A DNA stretch of 64,000 nt from Nitrospira sp. (GTDB lineage: Bacteria; Nitrospirota; Thermodesulfovibrionia; UBA6902), in assembly GCA_016784355.1 (NCBI GenBank), contig JADHUV010000012.1:1-64000 (forward strand). The letters are read 5' to 3'. The position numbers and the translations under genes are program-made. Below, piece by piece: positions 54,396 to 63,920 of this stretch. The notes below the pieces were generated by a model. That model was not told the origin of the DNA. It ran no database searches and saw only the letters and a list, made by a program, of their open reading frames with translations. How positions within the stretch are numbered: position 1 is the first letter of the stretch; the number at the start of each line of letters is the position of its first letter.

Positions 54396-54638
54396 ATGAT
54401 TACTTTAAGACTTGACCCTGAGCTGGAAAAAAATGTTCAAAATATGGCCAAAAAACTTGGTGTAACAAAATCCGAGTTAATCCGTAAAAGCATTGCTGAA
54501 TATATTAGTAAAACAGTCCATCCCAGTCCGTGGGAAGTCGGGGAGAGTTATTTTGGCAAATATTCCAGCGGGCAGGGTAATCTGTCGTCAGATAGAAAAG
54601 CATTGCTGAAGACGAAACTTGCAGCAAAAAGAAAATGA
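54396..54638 (+). CDS. Ribbon-helix-helix antitoxin
   Basis: This protein has 80 residues. MITLRLDPELEKNVQNMAKKLGVTKSELIRKSI is a clear RHH domain that binds DNA as a dimer; the C-terminal half probably blocks the toxin. It overlaps the toxin gene by 4 bp (ATGA). Confidence 0.85.
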   Translation: MITLRLDPELEKNVQNMAKKLGVTKSELIRKSIAEYISKTVHPSPWEVGESYFGKYSSGQGNLSSDRKALLKTKLAAKRK

Positions 54639-55045
54639 AGAAAATCCTTATAGATTCGGGACCGTTAATTGCCCTGTTTGACGCATCAGACAGGTATCAT
54701 CAGAATTCCGTAGACTTCATAAAAAATAACAAGGCAATATTAGTAACTACAATTGCATCAATCACAGAAACATTGCATTTGTTGGATTTTAACCGTAATG
54801 CCCAGATAGATTTTCTGGAGTGGTTAAGTTGTGGAGCTCTGGAGATTCACAATATCGAAATATTTGATTTTGTCAGGATCAAAGAGTTGATCTCAAAATA
54901 CCATGACCTGCCGATGGATTTTGCTGATAGCTGTCTCGTACTGTTGGCAGAGAAACTGAATATTCAGACTATTGCGACTATAGACAGGGACTTTACAATA
55001 TATAGAATCAAAGGAACAAAGAAGTTTAATGTTGTTCTGTCATAG
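54635..55045 (+). CDS. PIN-domain toxin (VapC type)
   Basis: This protein has 136 residues. The acidic residues of the PIN nuclease are in place: Asp7 (ILIDSGPL), Glu45 (ITETLHLL), Asp95 or Asp98 (DFADSC) and Asp117 (ATIDRDF). VapC toxins cut tRNA or rRNA. It pairs with the RHH antitoxin before it. Confidence 0.88.
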   Translation: MKKILIDSGPLIALFDASDRYHQNSVDFIKNNKAILVTTIASITETLHLLDFNRNAQIDFLEWLSCGALEIHNIEIFDFVRIKELISKYHDLPMDFADSCLVLLAEKLNIQTIATIDRDFTIYRIKGTKKFNVVLS

Positions 55046-56894: not shown

Positions 56895-58580
56895 TTACGG
56901 AATAATAGAGGTGACCCTGCCGTGATCGATCACGACAAGCCCGAGTATGGTGTAATCGCCGTCTTTATAAGGCAGTTCGGGAATCGGATCTGAGATGTGC
57001 TCTACTGTCCAGAGTGACTGTGACTGGTCATCGATGGAGCTTTTGGAGTGCATTATATATATTGCAACTGCAGGTTCTTCGCCATCAAGATCAAGCGCCG
57101 CTCCGGAAATGCTGAATGAATGAAGTCCCTCTCTATTTTTAGTAATATTATTCTCTCCACTGAACAGCAGTCTGGAGGTTCCCCTGTCATTAAGGGCAAC
57201 TGCATAAATATTGCCTTTCCCCGCGCCCTCAAGCATGAATTCCAGGGACTCGTAATTATATAGCCGGCTGTCCTGCATTATTGGTTCTGAGCCGTCTTGC
57301 CCATCTTTTATAACGGCTCCCCTGATAGAGCTTAGGCGCAGAGGTGCAGGTTGTGAGATTATCGCATCTTGCCTGAGTTCAGTGAGCAGAGGCAATGTTT
57401 CCGGCTTATCTCTTACACTCATATAGATTAAGGCAATTGCTGAGGCTATGAATAAAGAAATGAGCCGGTATCTGAGGGAGGTGGCGGGGTGCTCAGGAAC
57501 AGGGGGCTTATTTTCTTTTTCTGTACTTTTTGGCTGTATGGAAAAGGCAGGATCTCCATAAAGCACATAGCCGGCCCACGTCACATTGTTAATGCCGTAT
57601 TGTGATATGAGTTTTCCCCGTGCATCTTTTAAGGCCGGGCCGATAGGTTTTCCGCTGCATAGTGCTTTGTAGAAGGAGAGGGCAAATTCACGGGAGGAGG
57701 CATCTGCTATGCTGCACATTGTCCCAATGTAGTGAGAGGAACCGGCCCTGAGAAAGGCTGAGGCCATATCATAAACAGCCTTTTCAGTATTGTTTTGCAG
57801 GCCTTCGAGATCTGCCCTGGCAGAGTTGCAGGCATTGGCAAATACAAGAAACGGGAAATGGCCATGTCCGCTTATCTCTGCTATGTCATCAGGATTCATA
57901 ATGCCGTCAGACATGCGCCAGCCGCATTTGTTTTTGTCAGAGGTATGATACTCTGCATGGCCTGCATAGTGTAATATTTCATAATCCCTGATATTTCTTT
58001 TCAGGAATCTTTTATCCACATTGCTGCTTGCAAGATCAGGCTTAAGCCGTTGCTGATTTTCAAGACCATGGCATATCTCCATGCCTTCTTTGTACGCGGC
58101 CTTCAGGCTGCTGTCCGGATCACCGATCACGAGCATGCCAGAACTGTTTTCCTGTGTTTTCGGCGGTCTGGCTAAAGGTGTGTGCTGTGTTGTCACGGCT
58201 CGGCCTGTGCTGAATCTGAGGCAGAGAAAATTATTGCCGTCATGCATGAGTTCCAGGGGCAGGTGAATTAGCTGATCATCAATATTAAGCGAGAGCATTT
58301 CGCAGGAAGTAGAGCGCACAGCCTCTTTGGCACCGGCTGGCAGGAGGCCTTCAAATAGCTCCTGCCCTGCTTTTTTAAGCCGCGCAAGAGCACTTTCATC
58401 AATCTCGCCGCGCAGGTTGGCCCTCCCAAGTATACTGACAATCTCCCGGCATATATGCTCTGTGGTCTTAAAGGATACAGGCCTGGTCTCATACTTGCGC
58501 AGCGTCTGTAAATGGCCTTCTTCCGCCCGGACGCGGACGCCCTGATCTGTCTTTGTGATACTGAGATTGAAAATATGCAT
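56895..58580 (-). CDS. CHAT-domain protease with membrane anchor and C-terminal extracytoplasmic domain
   Basis: This protein has 561 residues. The CHAT (caspase-like) catalytic His is His208 (HYAGHAEYH) and the Cys is Cys251 (FANACNSARA), with GTMCSIADASS following. A single membrane helix is at about 373-388. The remaining 170 residues have NIYAVALNDRGTSRLLFSG, a pattern like DUF4384-type regulatory domains. The start overlaps the anti-sigma stop by one base. CHAT proteases in other systems cut partner proteins when a sensor fires; here the sensor could be the sigma/anti-sigma pair. Confidence 0.87.
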   Translation of the reverse strand: MHIFNLSITKTDQGVRVRAEEGHLQTLRKYETRPVSFKTTEHICREIVSILGRANLRGEIDESALARLKKAGQELFEGLLPAGAKEAVRSTSCEMLSLNIDDQLIHLPLELMHDGNNFLCLRFSTGRAVTTQHTPLARPPKTQENSSGMLVIGDPDSSLKAAYKEGMEICHGLENQQRLKPDLASSNVDKRFLKRNIRDYEILHYAGHAEYHTSDKNKCGWRMSDGIMNPDDIAEISGHGHFPFLVFANACNSARADLEGLQNNTEKAVYDMASAFLRAGSSHYIGTMCSIADASSREFALSFYKALCSGKPIGPALKDARGKLISQYGINNVTWAGYVLYGDPAFSIQPKSTEKENKPPVPEHPATSLRYRLISLFIASAIALIYMSVRDKPETLPLLTELRQDAIISQPAPLRLSSIRGAVIKDGQDGSEPIMQDSRLYNYESLEFMLEGAGKGNIYAVALNDRGTSRLLFSGENNITKNREGLHSFSISGAALDLDGEEPAVAIYIMHSKSSIDDQSQSLWTVEHISDPIPELPYKDGDYTILGLVVIDHGRVTSIIP

Positions 58581-59269
58581 CAGTCGGATATGATACGGAG
58601 CTGCAGACCCCCGATTCGTTCGCCATCTTTTGAAAAAGCAAGTTCATAATCAGCAGGCGGCAGGTCCTCGAGAAATAATTTTTCTGCAAGTGCGCTGCAA
58701 CGCAGTTCCCTGTTTTTTTCGAACAGGCTTACCCTGATACCGGAAGGCTGCCGGCATGACAATAGAATATCAAAACGGCCAATGGAGGTTTGTTCAATTG
58801 TGATCTCTGTCGGGATTATGCCGATATTATGCTTAATAAGAACAGCGTCTGAAAGACCCATGCGGCCACCCCGCTGGGGAATTGCCTCAGGGTGAAACAC
58901 TGTACAGATTCCCGCGCTGTCGCTTAATATGGAGACTATATCTCTTGTGAAACTTACTGCTATTGCGGCAAGCTCACAGGTTTTTTCCCGAAAGGCTTTT
59001 TTTGTCCTTTCCGCTATTGATGAGGGTGCGGAGGTCATAGCGGCTTTTTCAGCCTCAGTGAACACCCTTCTATATATAATGCTTTTCTCAAGACACCCGG
59101 AACAATCAGCAAGATGAGACTCAGCTGCAAGTTTATTGTCATCAGGTAAACTGCCCTCGATATATCCGGCCATTGTTTCTTCGCTCAGACAGTGACTATC
59201 AGTGTTATCTATGCCGTGATTGTGTTTAGTCCTGAAAAAGGCCTTTAATTTTTTCTCAAGTTCATCCAT
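58580..59269 (-). CDS. Zinc-finger anti-sigma factor (zf-HC2)
   Basis: This 229-residue protein has HLADCSGC, the HxxxCxxC finger of HC2 anti-sigma factors, at His52, Cys56 and Cys59. No membrane helix is evident, so it is probably soluble. The C-terminal half has beta-rich sequence (GIRVSLFEKNRELRCSALAEK). It follows the sigma gene by 47 bp and overlaps the CHAT start. Confidence 0.82.
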   Translation of the reverse strand: MDELEKKLKAFFRTKHNHGIDNTDSHCLSEETMAGYIEGSLPDDNKLAAESHLADCSGCLEKSIIYRRVFTEAEKAAMTSAPSSIAERTKKAFREKTCELAAIAVSFTRDIVSILSDSAGICTVFHPEAIPQRGGRMGLSDAVLIKHNIGIIPTEITIEQTSIGRFDILLSCRQPSGIRVSLFEKNRELRCSALAEKLFLEDLPPADYELAFSKDGERIGGLQLRIISD

Positions 59270-59316
59270 TGATCAATTTCTCTCCCATACTTTAATAGAC
59301 ACAGCTATATGGATTT

Positions 59317-59928
59317 TTAGTCACCTTTTAATTCCTGCACCATAGAAGCCAGTTTTTTTCTGGCTCTGCTTAGTTTGCTGTATACTGCATTCGGCGTCGT
59401 ATGCATCAGTACGGCGATCTCTTCTGGTGACTGATCTTTCATGTAACGATATTTTATAACAAGCCGGTCATCCGGGGAGAGTTTTTGCAGTGCTCTATTA
59501 AAGAGTTCGGCTTCTTCCCGTTTTAGAAGTATCTCATCGGCATTTTTAGCCGGACTTGGAGTTTTTTCGGCTATTGATTGTCTGTCCGTAAGTTGATCAT
59601 CCAGAGATACAGTGGTTTTGCTGCGAGTCGCAAAATTTATCGTAGTATTGACTGCGATAATTCGAAGCCAGCTTGCTACTGAGCAGCCATTGTCACCTCT
59701 GTACATCTTGAGTTTTCTGCAATCGTCTTTTAACAGTGAGAGGAAGATATCATTATGCAGGTCTTCCAGATCCTCATTCAGGTAATCTTTGCAATAGAGT
59801 TCCAGAGTTGTCCTGATGTATTTATATAGCAGACCTGAAAACTGATCGATAAAGGAGTTCTTTGCCTCTGGGTCTCCGCTTATGCAGTTTTTGATTAGTA
59901 CTTTATCGTTTTTTCTTGAATCGGTCAT
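59317..59928 (-). CDS. RNA polymerase sigma factor, ECF-like
   Basis: This 203-residue protein has region 2 (LHNDIFLSLLKDDC, SVASWLRIIAVNTTINF) and region 4 (LVIKYRYMKDQSPEEIAVLMHTTPNAVYSKLSRARKKL). The pair with the downstream zf-HC2 protein is typical of ECF regulation. It follows the HEAT-repeat gene by 27 bp. Confidence 0.9.
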   Translation of the reverse strand: MTDSRKNDKVLIKNCISGDPEAKNSFIDQFSGLLYKYIRTTLELYCKDYLNEDLEDLHNDIFLSLLKDDCRKLKMYRGDNGCSVASWLRIIAVNTTINFATRSKTTVSLDDQLTDRQSIAEKTPSPAKNADEILLKREEAELFNRALQKLSPDDRLVIKYRYMKDQSPEEIAVLMHTTPNAVYSKLSRARKKLASMVQELKGD

Positions 59929-59955
59929 TTTAATAGAAAATAATAGACAGCTTAC

Positions 59956-60846
59956 TTACAGCCTCTCTTCGGTGATTTTTTCATCTTGAATCTTCATTAT
60001 GACAGGTTGTTCCTGATCGTTCAGTGCATCCAATATCCAGCCCGCACGGACCTTTGCATGTTTGTTGCCGTGCAGGGCTGTTGTCTTAATAACATCGAGA
60101 GCGTTTCTGCCATAGTGCTGCAGGCTTCTCTGTGCATAGACCCGTACATTATAATCACTGTCTCCAAGTGCAGAAGCCAGCGGTGTAAGTGCCCGTGTAT
60201 CGTTGATCTCGCCAAGTGCCCAGGCGGCCCATTTTCTGACATTCGGCATACGGTCATGCAGGACTAAACTGCTCAGTATATCAAGTGCACGACTGTCCTT
60301 GATTTTGCCGAGCGTACGAGCCGCGCTGCCTCTGACATCCGGTATAACACTTTTTGCAGTCTCTATAAGCGGCTCTACCGATCGTGCATCGCACATTTCT
60401 CCGAGAGCCCAGGCAACCATAGTGTGAAGTTGAGGCCTTTTATCCTCCAGAATCTCAATCAGAGGTTGAACTGCACGCCTGTCCCCTGTTTTTCCCAGGG
60501 CCTCGGCGGACTTCAGTCTGATGATCCAGTCACTGTGCTGCAGCGCATTGATAAGTGGATCAACCGCGCGTACGTCCGCTATCTCTCCCAGTGCCCATGC
60601 CGCACTTTTTCTAACGCCCCATACGTCATCATGTTTCAGCAGCATTGCAAGTGAGCCGACGGCGGCAGTGCTCTTTCTCTTGCCCAGTGTTATAACTGCT
60701 GCCTCACGTATATCTGCCTCTGGATGGTTGAGAAGAAATATTAGCTCACTTTCGGAACCTGACACTGGCTGAGTATAACTGTCGGCAGGGAAAAAACATA
60801 TTGCCGCTGCTACAATCAATAGATAATGGAAAAAGCCTTTCAGCAT
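59956..60846 (-). CDS. HEAT-repeat protein, probably exported
   Basis: This 296-residue protein has an N-terminal hydrophobic signal (YLLIVAAAICFFPADS). It then has about seven HEAT/PBS-type repeats with the recurring pattern AAWALGEI-D-R-A-V-xPL-I (for example VRKSAAWALGEIADVRAV). It offers a protein-binding surface in the periplasm or at the membrane. Starts further upstream exist (60873 and 60921); none has a good ribosome site. It begins the run of sigma, anti-sigma and CHAT genes. Confidence 0.82.
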   Translation of the reverse strand: MLKGFFHYLLIVAAAICFFPADSYTQPVSGSESELIFLLNHPEADIREAAVITLGKRKSTAAVGSLAMLLKHDDVWGVRKSAAWALGEIADVRAVDPLINALQHSDWIIRLKSAEALGKTGDRRAVQPLIEILEDKRPQLHTMVAWALGEMCDARSVEPLIETAKSVIPDVRGSAARTLGKIKDSRALDILSSLVLHDRMPNVRKWAAWALGEINDTRALTPLASALGDSDYNVRVYAQRSLQHYGRNALDVIKTTALHGNKHAKVRAGWILDALNDQEQPVIMKIQDEKITEERL

Positions 60847-61133
60847 ATTAGTTTCATAGGATAAACCGCGCATAACAACAATAATAAACAGATCTTGAGA
60901 GTAAGTCCATAAAACTCCCATTCCCTGAGCAGTATTTGATATGCACTCAGTTAAGTGCTGTTTAAAGAGTGAACGTAGCTTTGCTTATGGTTATCTATTA
61001 AATACCTACACTTACTTCATAGTGATAGATTGATGCTGCACCTGGTATTATGCATATTTAGCGCTGGTCTGCGCAGGAAGACTTGACCTGTTTTCGTACA
61101 TATAGTTTGCCAATATATTAAAATAAATGCCTT
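60847..61133. other. Divergent region before the HEAT gene and the efflux operon
   Basis: About 287 bases with no gene seen. A small inverted repeat GCACT...AGTGC is at about 60943-60958. Confidence 0.45.
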
Positions 61134-63696: not shown

Positions 63697-63920
63697 GAGG
63701 CATAGAAGCAGGCACAGAGGCATAGAGGCATAGAGGCATAGAGGCATAGAGGCATAGAGGCGCAGAGGCATAGAGGCATAGAGGCATAGAGGCATAGAGG
63801 CATAGAGGCACAAAGGCACAAAGGCACAAAGGCATAGAGGCACAAAGGCACAAAGGCACAAAGGCATAGAGGCACAAAGGCACAAAGGCACAAAGGAGCA
63901 GAGGAGCAGAGGCACAAAGG
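63697..63920. repeat. Tandem array of an 8-bp unit, AGGCA(C/T)A(A/G), about 28 copies
   Basis: Units AGGCATAG and AGGCACAA with rare AGGCGCAG or AGGAGCAG run for about 224 bp between the adaptor gene and the pump gene. As the unit is not a multiple of three, all three minus-strand frames stay open and give Leu-Cys-Leu-Tyr-Ala-Ser-Met-Pro-type repeats. These are not genes. A shorter array is at 41484-41529. Confidence 0.9.

Follow-up and report, generated by a model that had tools for sequence, protein, structure and literature searches.

The cleavage of a sigma factor inhibitor by a CHAT-domain protease has an experimental precedent in the Craspase of type III-E CRISPR (clustered regularly interspaced short palindromic repeats) systems, in which Csx29 cleaves Csx30, the inhibitor of CASP-sigma (PMC10028731). 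The protease is contacted mainly by the C-terminal part of Csx30, and orthologues differ in their cut site (PMC11106740). In the related fold of separase, the P1 arginine is bound by D2151, and the equivalent residue in Csx29 is K670 (PMC9729208). CHAT, subtilase or carboxypeptidase genes also occur in the context of the extracytoplasmic function (ECF) sigma factors of group ECF54, for which proteolytic control was proposed and which were described as working without an anti-sigma factor (PMC8999054). In this study, which was based on profile searches, structure models and comparative genomics, we analysed a stretch of 64,000 nucleotides from Nitrospira sp. (contig JADHUV010000012.1 of assembly GCA_016784355.1; hereafter the window) that carries adjacent genes for an ECF-type sigma factor, a soluble anti-sigma factor and a CHAT protease. 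We propose, with a probability of roughly 0.55, that this trio is a chromosomal signalling module in which a signal-gated CHAT protease would cut the linker of the anti-sigma factor and release the sigma factor. The Pfam and NCBIfam profile searches of the window proteins and the comparison with their relatives gave the following features.

56895..58580, minus strand: CHAT-domain cysteine protease of 561 residues, with CHAT at 70-343, a transmembrane segment at about 371-389 and a C-terminal part without an assigned fold (PF12770, 5.7e-28)
57957..57959, minus strand: codon of the CHAT catalytic His208, histidine in 81 of 81 sequences
57828..57830, minus strand: codon of the CHAT catalytic Cys251, cysteine in 81 of 81 sequences
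58580..59269, minus strand: soluble anti-sigma factor of 229 residues, with a zf-HC2 helical domain at 30-96, a linker and a beta-sandwich at 142-228 (zf-HC2, 3.9e-4)
58847..58918, minus strand: linker of the anti-sigma factor, residues 118-141, proposed cleavage region, predicted to be disordered and with 20-40 changes per site except at Arg133
58871..58873, minus strand: codon of Arg133 of the anti-sigma factor, candidate P1 residue for cleavage by CHAT, arginine in 67 of 67 sequences with 0 changes
59317..59928, minus strand: ECF-type sigma factor of 203 residues (TIGR02937, 81.2 bits; Sigma70_r4_2, 1.6e-14)
59956..60846 (open reading frame to 60921), minus strand: predicted exported HEAT-repeat protein (HEAT_2, 1.9e-66), a local neighbour outside the conserved unit

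All four open reading frames were confirmed where the preliminary description of this DNA had placed them, on one strand with spacings of 27 and 47 base pairs and a 1-base TGATG overlap between the anti-sigma and CHAT genes. The identities that it had given from the letters alone (HEAT protein, ECF-like sigma factor, HC2 anti-sigma factor and CHAT protease) were borne out by the profiles, with zf-HC2 slightly under its cut-off (20.9 versus 22.2 bits). The CHAT protein, which is the single PF12770 match in the whole genome, scored 98.6 bits against a cut-off of 24 and, with its His-Cys dyad, can be classified as a CHAT peptidase. The sigma factor exceeded the TIGR02937 cut-off of 42.9 bits and has the ECF architecture of regions 2 and 4 only in about 200 residues, with Sigma70_r2 at 18.9 bits, under the Pfam cut-off of 24.

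Relatives were sought in the window's class and then in one genome per species with a four-member CHAT alignment (A4). A contig scan with the window CHAT as the sole query found no relatives, and the alignment search yielded 288 CHAT relatives, the best 80 of which are used for the counts given here. According to gene calls and profiles, the complete trio of sigma factor, anti-sigma factor and CHAT is collinear (plus-strand order) in 57 of these 80 loci, and several of the loci without a full trio are cut by contig ends. The anti-sigma gene lies immediately before CHAT in 64 loci and the sigma gene at position -2 in 60, with the window included in both counts. The record titles of the relatives name Nitrospirota, Desulfobacterota/Deltaproteobacteria, Omnitrophota, Schekmanbacteria and others; most of them are metagenome-assembled genomes, and Desulfonema magnum (L034) is a cultured example. 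When 231 genomes of the window's class were searched with the anti-sigma profile, 17, including the window, matched at 2e-11 or better, and CHAT adjoins the anti-sigma gene in 15 of these. The two exceptions are L112, in which a 401-residue open reading frame without identification is found in the place of CHAT, and L127, in which CHAT is broken after the first 96 residues. The broken gene (L127:8279-8566) lies in a single-contig metagenome-assembled genome that is 78% complete, and the break may be a recent loss or an assembly fault. The order is retained even in L137, a remote trio whose sigma factor has diverged.

The evolutionary distances among 60 trios were correlated, with r of 0.83 for the sigma and anti-sigma factors, 0.56 for the anti-sigma factor and CHAT, and 0.54 for the sigma factor and CHAT. 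Because species history alone could yield such correlations, genomes that have two trios were compared. In three genomes with divergent paralogous trios, the row correlation between the anti-sigma factor and CHAT was 0.45-0.68 for the true partners and -0.01 to 0.09 when the partners were swapped, while in a fourth genome the second trio was a recent duplicate and uninformative. Divergent paralogous trios within one genome thus evolve as trios, and the three genes are inherited together. That the three genes form a functional unit is, in our judgement, close to certain.

This does not extend to the fourth gene of the operon proposed earlier. Since a HEAT homologue was found in none of the 80 related CHAT loci, the conserved unit consists of three genes and not four, and the HEAT protein was ruled out as a component of the module. 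The core of the circuit of CHAT, anti-sigma and sigma factors that had been suggested for this operon is well supported by conservation, through the gene order across several phyla, the intact dyad, the co-inheritance and Arg133; HEAT has no place in it. The HEAT open reading frame spans 59956-60921, and the ATG at 60846, which was taken as its start previously, gives a signal-peptide-like N-terminus; the gene is possibly co-transcribed with the trio.

The anti-sigma factor had been described as soluble, which agrees with the lack of a hydrophobic segment in the window protein and of a predicted transmembrane segment in 65 of 66 members. It can be classified by sequence as a zinc-binding (zf-HC2) anti-sigma factor: its motif His52-Cys56-Cys59 (HxxxCxxC) is kept at 93-96% across 67 sequences, zf-HC2 matches 51 of the 67 at E 0.01, and the N-terminal part matches the solved anti-sigma domains of RsiW (8.4e-05), DdvA (2.2e-04) and ChrR (1.1e-03) in profile comparisons. 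In the AlphaFold2 model, the zinc-finger helices (30-96) are followed by two low-confidence strands, a coil (118-141) and a confident beta-sandwich (142-228). No convincing Pfam family was found for the beta-sandwich, and in a Foldseek search the whole protein had no match at E 0.001 or better, its hits being weak and Ig-like. The linker is almost without secondary structure, and the block means of its predicted local distance difference test (pLDDT) score are 54-61. Arg133 within this linker is, together with Tyr208, one of the sole two invariant residues among the 67 sequences. On a tree of length 63 it showed no change, compared with 20-40 changes at the other linker sites. In 63 of the 67 sequences the residue before it is Leu, Val, Ile, Ala or Phe, and in 54 the residue after it is Gly or Ser; 60 of the 67 linkers contain the pattern [VLIAMF]R[GSDNA], compared with a mean of 14 (maximum 26) when the linkers are shuffled. 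Arg-Gly was also found at this place in the two most distant relatives read, L112 and L137.

The catalytic dyad of His208 and Cys251 is intact in all 81 CHAT sequences, which implies selection for proteolysis. The CHAT region was modelled mostly with pLDDT above 90, and the best PDB fold matches of the model were Csx29 of Craspase (E 1.7e-11) and separase (5fby, E 5.7e-11), with DdvA of Myxococcus also among the matches (2.5e-07). The single hydrophobic segment at residues 371-389 supports the membrane anchor that had been assigned to the protein. Because the part after residue 391 was modelled poorly (pLDDT 30-59), the C-terminal domain was left unnamed.

From these features, we infer the following circuit. 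The helical zinc-finger domain of the anti-sigma factor would keep the ECF sigma factor inactive, while CHAT, as an enzyme of the separase/Csx29 type, would be anchored in the membrane and activated by a signal detected through its own variable domains. The activated protease would then bind the anti-sigma factor, probably via the C-terminal beta-sandwich, a role that we assign to this domain by analogy with Csx30, whose C-terminal part makes the main contact with the protease in Craspase. It would cut the exposed linker at or beside Arg133 and split the sigma-binding domain from the sandwich, and the freed sigma factor could transcribe its target genes. The cleavage is placed at or next to Arg133 because an invariant residue in a free linker, beside a protease with an intact dyad, resembles a conserved cut site. 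It is likely that CHAT acts on the anti-sigma factor, and we give its predicted cut at Arg133 about an even chance.

Several observations weigh against this circuit, above all against its cut site. Position 297 of CHAT, which corresponds to D2151 of separase through the alignment with K670 of Csx29, is Leu in 27, Ser in 16, Arg in 9, Ala in 7, Lys in 4 and Thr in 4 of the 81 sequences. The acidic residue that characterises separase-like, arginine-specific peptidases is thus not found there, and a P1 arginine would need an acidic binding partner elsewhere. The spacing between Arg133 and the beta-sandwich is 14-15 residues in 61 of the 67 sequences, and because it is nearly constant the arginine may be structural. 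The arginine is also kept in L127, in which the sigma and anti-sigma genes are intact and CHAT is broken. Moreover, the cut site of Craspase varies between its orthologues, so that invariance is not demanded by the precedent. The near-constant spacing and the non-acidic pocket position would fit a CHAT protein that controls the sigma factor without cutting, either by binding the beta-sandwich as a signal-gated switch or by being held together with the sigma factor on an anti-sigma scaffold, with Arg133 as a docking or folding residue. We consider this alternative unlikely, as the universally intact dyad implies selected proteolysis and Arg133 sits in a coil of low confidence.

It could also be asked whether CHAT is the output of the system, such that the operon is transcribed under the control of the sigma and anti-sigma factors and the substrates of CHAT are other proteins, of the envelope or of cell fate. 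In the trio, CHAT comes last, and many relatives have envelope genes of the FadL family and of the CsgG/TPR types nearby; outer-membrane proteins of the FadL/TodX family are frequent in the related loci (one cluster in 38 loci), and TPR and CsgG proteins occur as well. However, no conserved ECF promoter motif was found upstream of the trio. In 55 upstream regions, searches for GAAC/GTC-type motifs and gapped words revealed no convincing autoregulatory promoter, and this candidate was dropped. AT-rich and TATAAT-like words alone stood out; TATAAT was enriched, being present in 27 of the 55 regions, compared with 17 for the commonest 6-mer of one shuffled set. As this explanation also leaves the invariant linker arginine unaccounted for, we consider it improbable. 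An anti-phage or abortive-infection system, which had been raised earlier and to which the action of CHAT proteases in Craspase and with bacterial gasdermins lends some appeal, was rejected as highly improbable on the evidence of defence models, islands and mobile elements: neither IMG/VR nor a set of 50,697 phage records contained relatives, plasmid matches were partial and below 60% identity, PADLOC gave no match for the window CHAT or anti-sigma factor (weak ones for the sigma factor and repeat matches for HEAT), and among 111 neighbours of 24 related loci it gave few scattered matches, each family in at most 3. Envelope, signalling and housekeeping genes were found around the relatives, with no consistent defence genes.

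If CHAT is the signal-gated protease of the module, its input appears to differ between relatives. Around the CHAT core of 35 relatives, variable parts include an N-terminal class III nucleotidyl cyclase (5/35), a CsgG-like domain (11/35) and an LpoB-like domain (6/35), as well as TPRs, DUF4384 with trypsin and F5/8 domains; Pfam C50 (separase) matched 6 of the 35. The pattern suggests a constant core to which different inputs are attached. Given the membrane segment and variable C-terminal part of most relatives, the envelope signal that had been suggested to activate CHAT is plausible; it would not hold for all of them, since some, such as L016, have no predicted transmembrane segment and others are fused to a cyclase. 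Such fusions were seen in L009:3559-6267, L011 and L022:8371-10869. In L022, the gene that immediately precedes the sigma gene encodes a cyclic-nucleotide-binding protein (Pfam match), and the same was seen by eye in L074. A cyclic nucleotide is a possible input. In L036:9022-12072, one protein has CHAT followed by a transmembrane segment, DUF4384 and a trypsin-like domain, and the predicted segment would place two types of protease on opposite sides of the membrane.

Two further features of the window were recorded. At 63710-63920, where a cluster of efflux genes ends, there are 26 tandem copies of the 8-mer AGGCACAG. At 54396-55045, a small ribbon-helix-helix-like gene is followed, with a 4-base overlap, by a PIN-like gene (by eye), a pair that resembles toxin-antitoxin genes of the VapBC type.

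Many bacteria have caspase-like CHAT proteases, and natural substrates are known for very few of these enzymes. The conservation described here points to a candidate substrate and a likely bond for a chromosomal CHAT outside defence, in a module that spans several phyla. If this is true, a clan CD protease joins the known routes of anti-sigma removal, and the output of Craspase gains a non-CRISPR context for its origin. A more speculative and rather unlikely extension is that the trio represents a widespread, CRISPR-free pathway of sigma release by an arginine-dependent CHAT, with a fixed core and swapped inputs (cyclase, CsgG/FlgO-like, TPR, DUF4384, trypsin and F5/8), and that type III-E CRISPR recruited its Csx29-Csx30-CASP-sigma arm from such stock.

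A description of the sigma/anti-sigma/CHAT trio was not found in our literature search, although the main ECF classification, which may mention such groups, lay outside it. Among the described systems, the Craspase arm (TPR-CHAT Csx29, Csx30 and CASP-sigma; PMC10028731) likewise sets a CHAT protease next to an inhibitor of an ECF-type sigma factor and to the sigma factor itself, and no PDB fold matched the window CHAT better than Csx29. However, the inhibitor of the trio is a zf-HC2 anti-sigma factor with no profile match to the solved Csx30 chains at E 1, and its candidate site is invariant whereas the Csx30 sites vary. The annotated open reading frames beside the trio include no Cas genes and thus no gRAMP/Cas7-11 partner as in Craspase, the rest of the genome not having been searched for them. 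The DdvS/DdvA system of Myxococcus xanthus (PDB 8rot, 8rw5 and 8rlz), for which our literature search found no paper on the DdvA structure, also combines a zinc-finger-type anti-sigma domain and a CHAT fold in the control of an ECF sigma factor, and both the anti-sigma factor and CHAT of the window match DdvA. DdvA is one transmembrane protein, whereas in the window and its 57 collinear relatives the two functions are encoded by separate genes, with a soluble anti-sigma factor and, in the window, a CHAT domain that is N-terminal to its transmembrane segment. Separase (peptidase C50) shares the fold (5fby), but the equivalent of its P1-arginine-binding Asp is not acidic in the CHAT family. ECF54 has in common with the trio a CHAT gene near an ECF sigma factor; the trio is set apart from ECF54 as described by its anti-sigma gene, which immediately precedes CHAT in the window as in most of the relatives. 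Finally, in the RseA/DegS/RseP and RsiW-type pathways (PMC10028731), proteases remove an anti-sigma factor and free an ECF sigma factor, as is proposed for the trio; those pathways use membrane anti-sigma factors with site-1 and site-2 proteases, whereas the trio pairs a soluble anti-sigma factor with a cysteine protease of clan CD.

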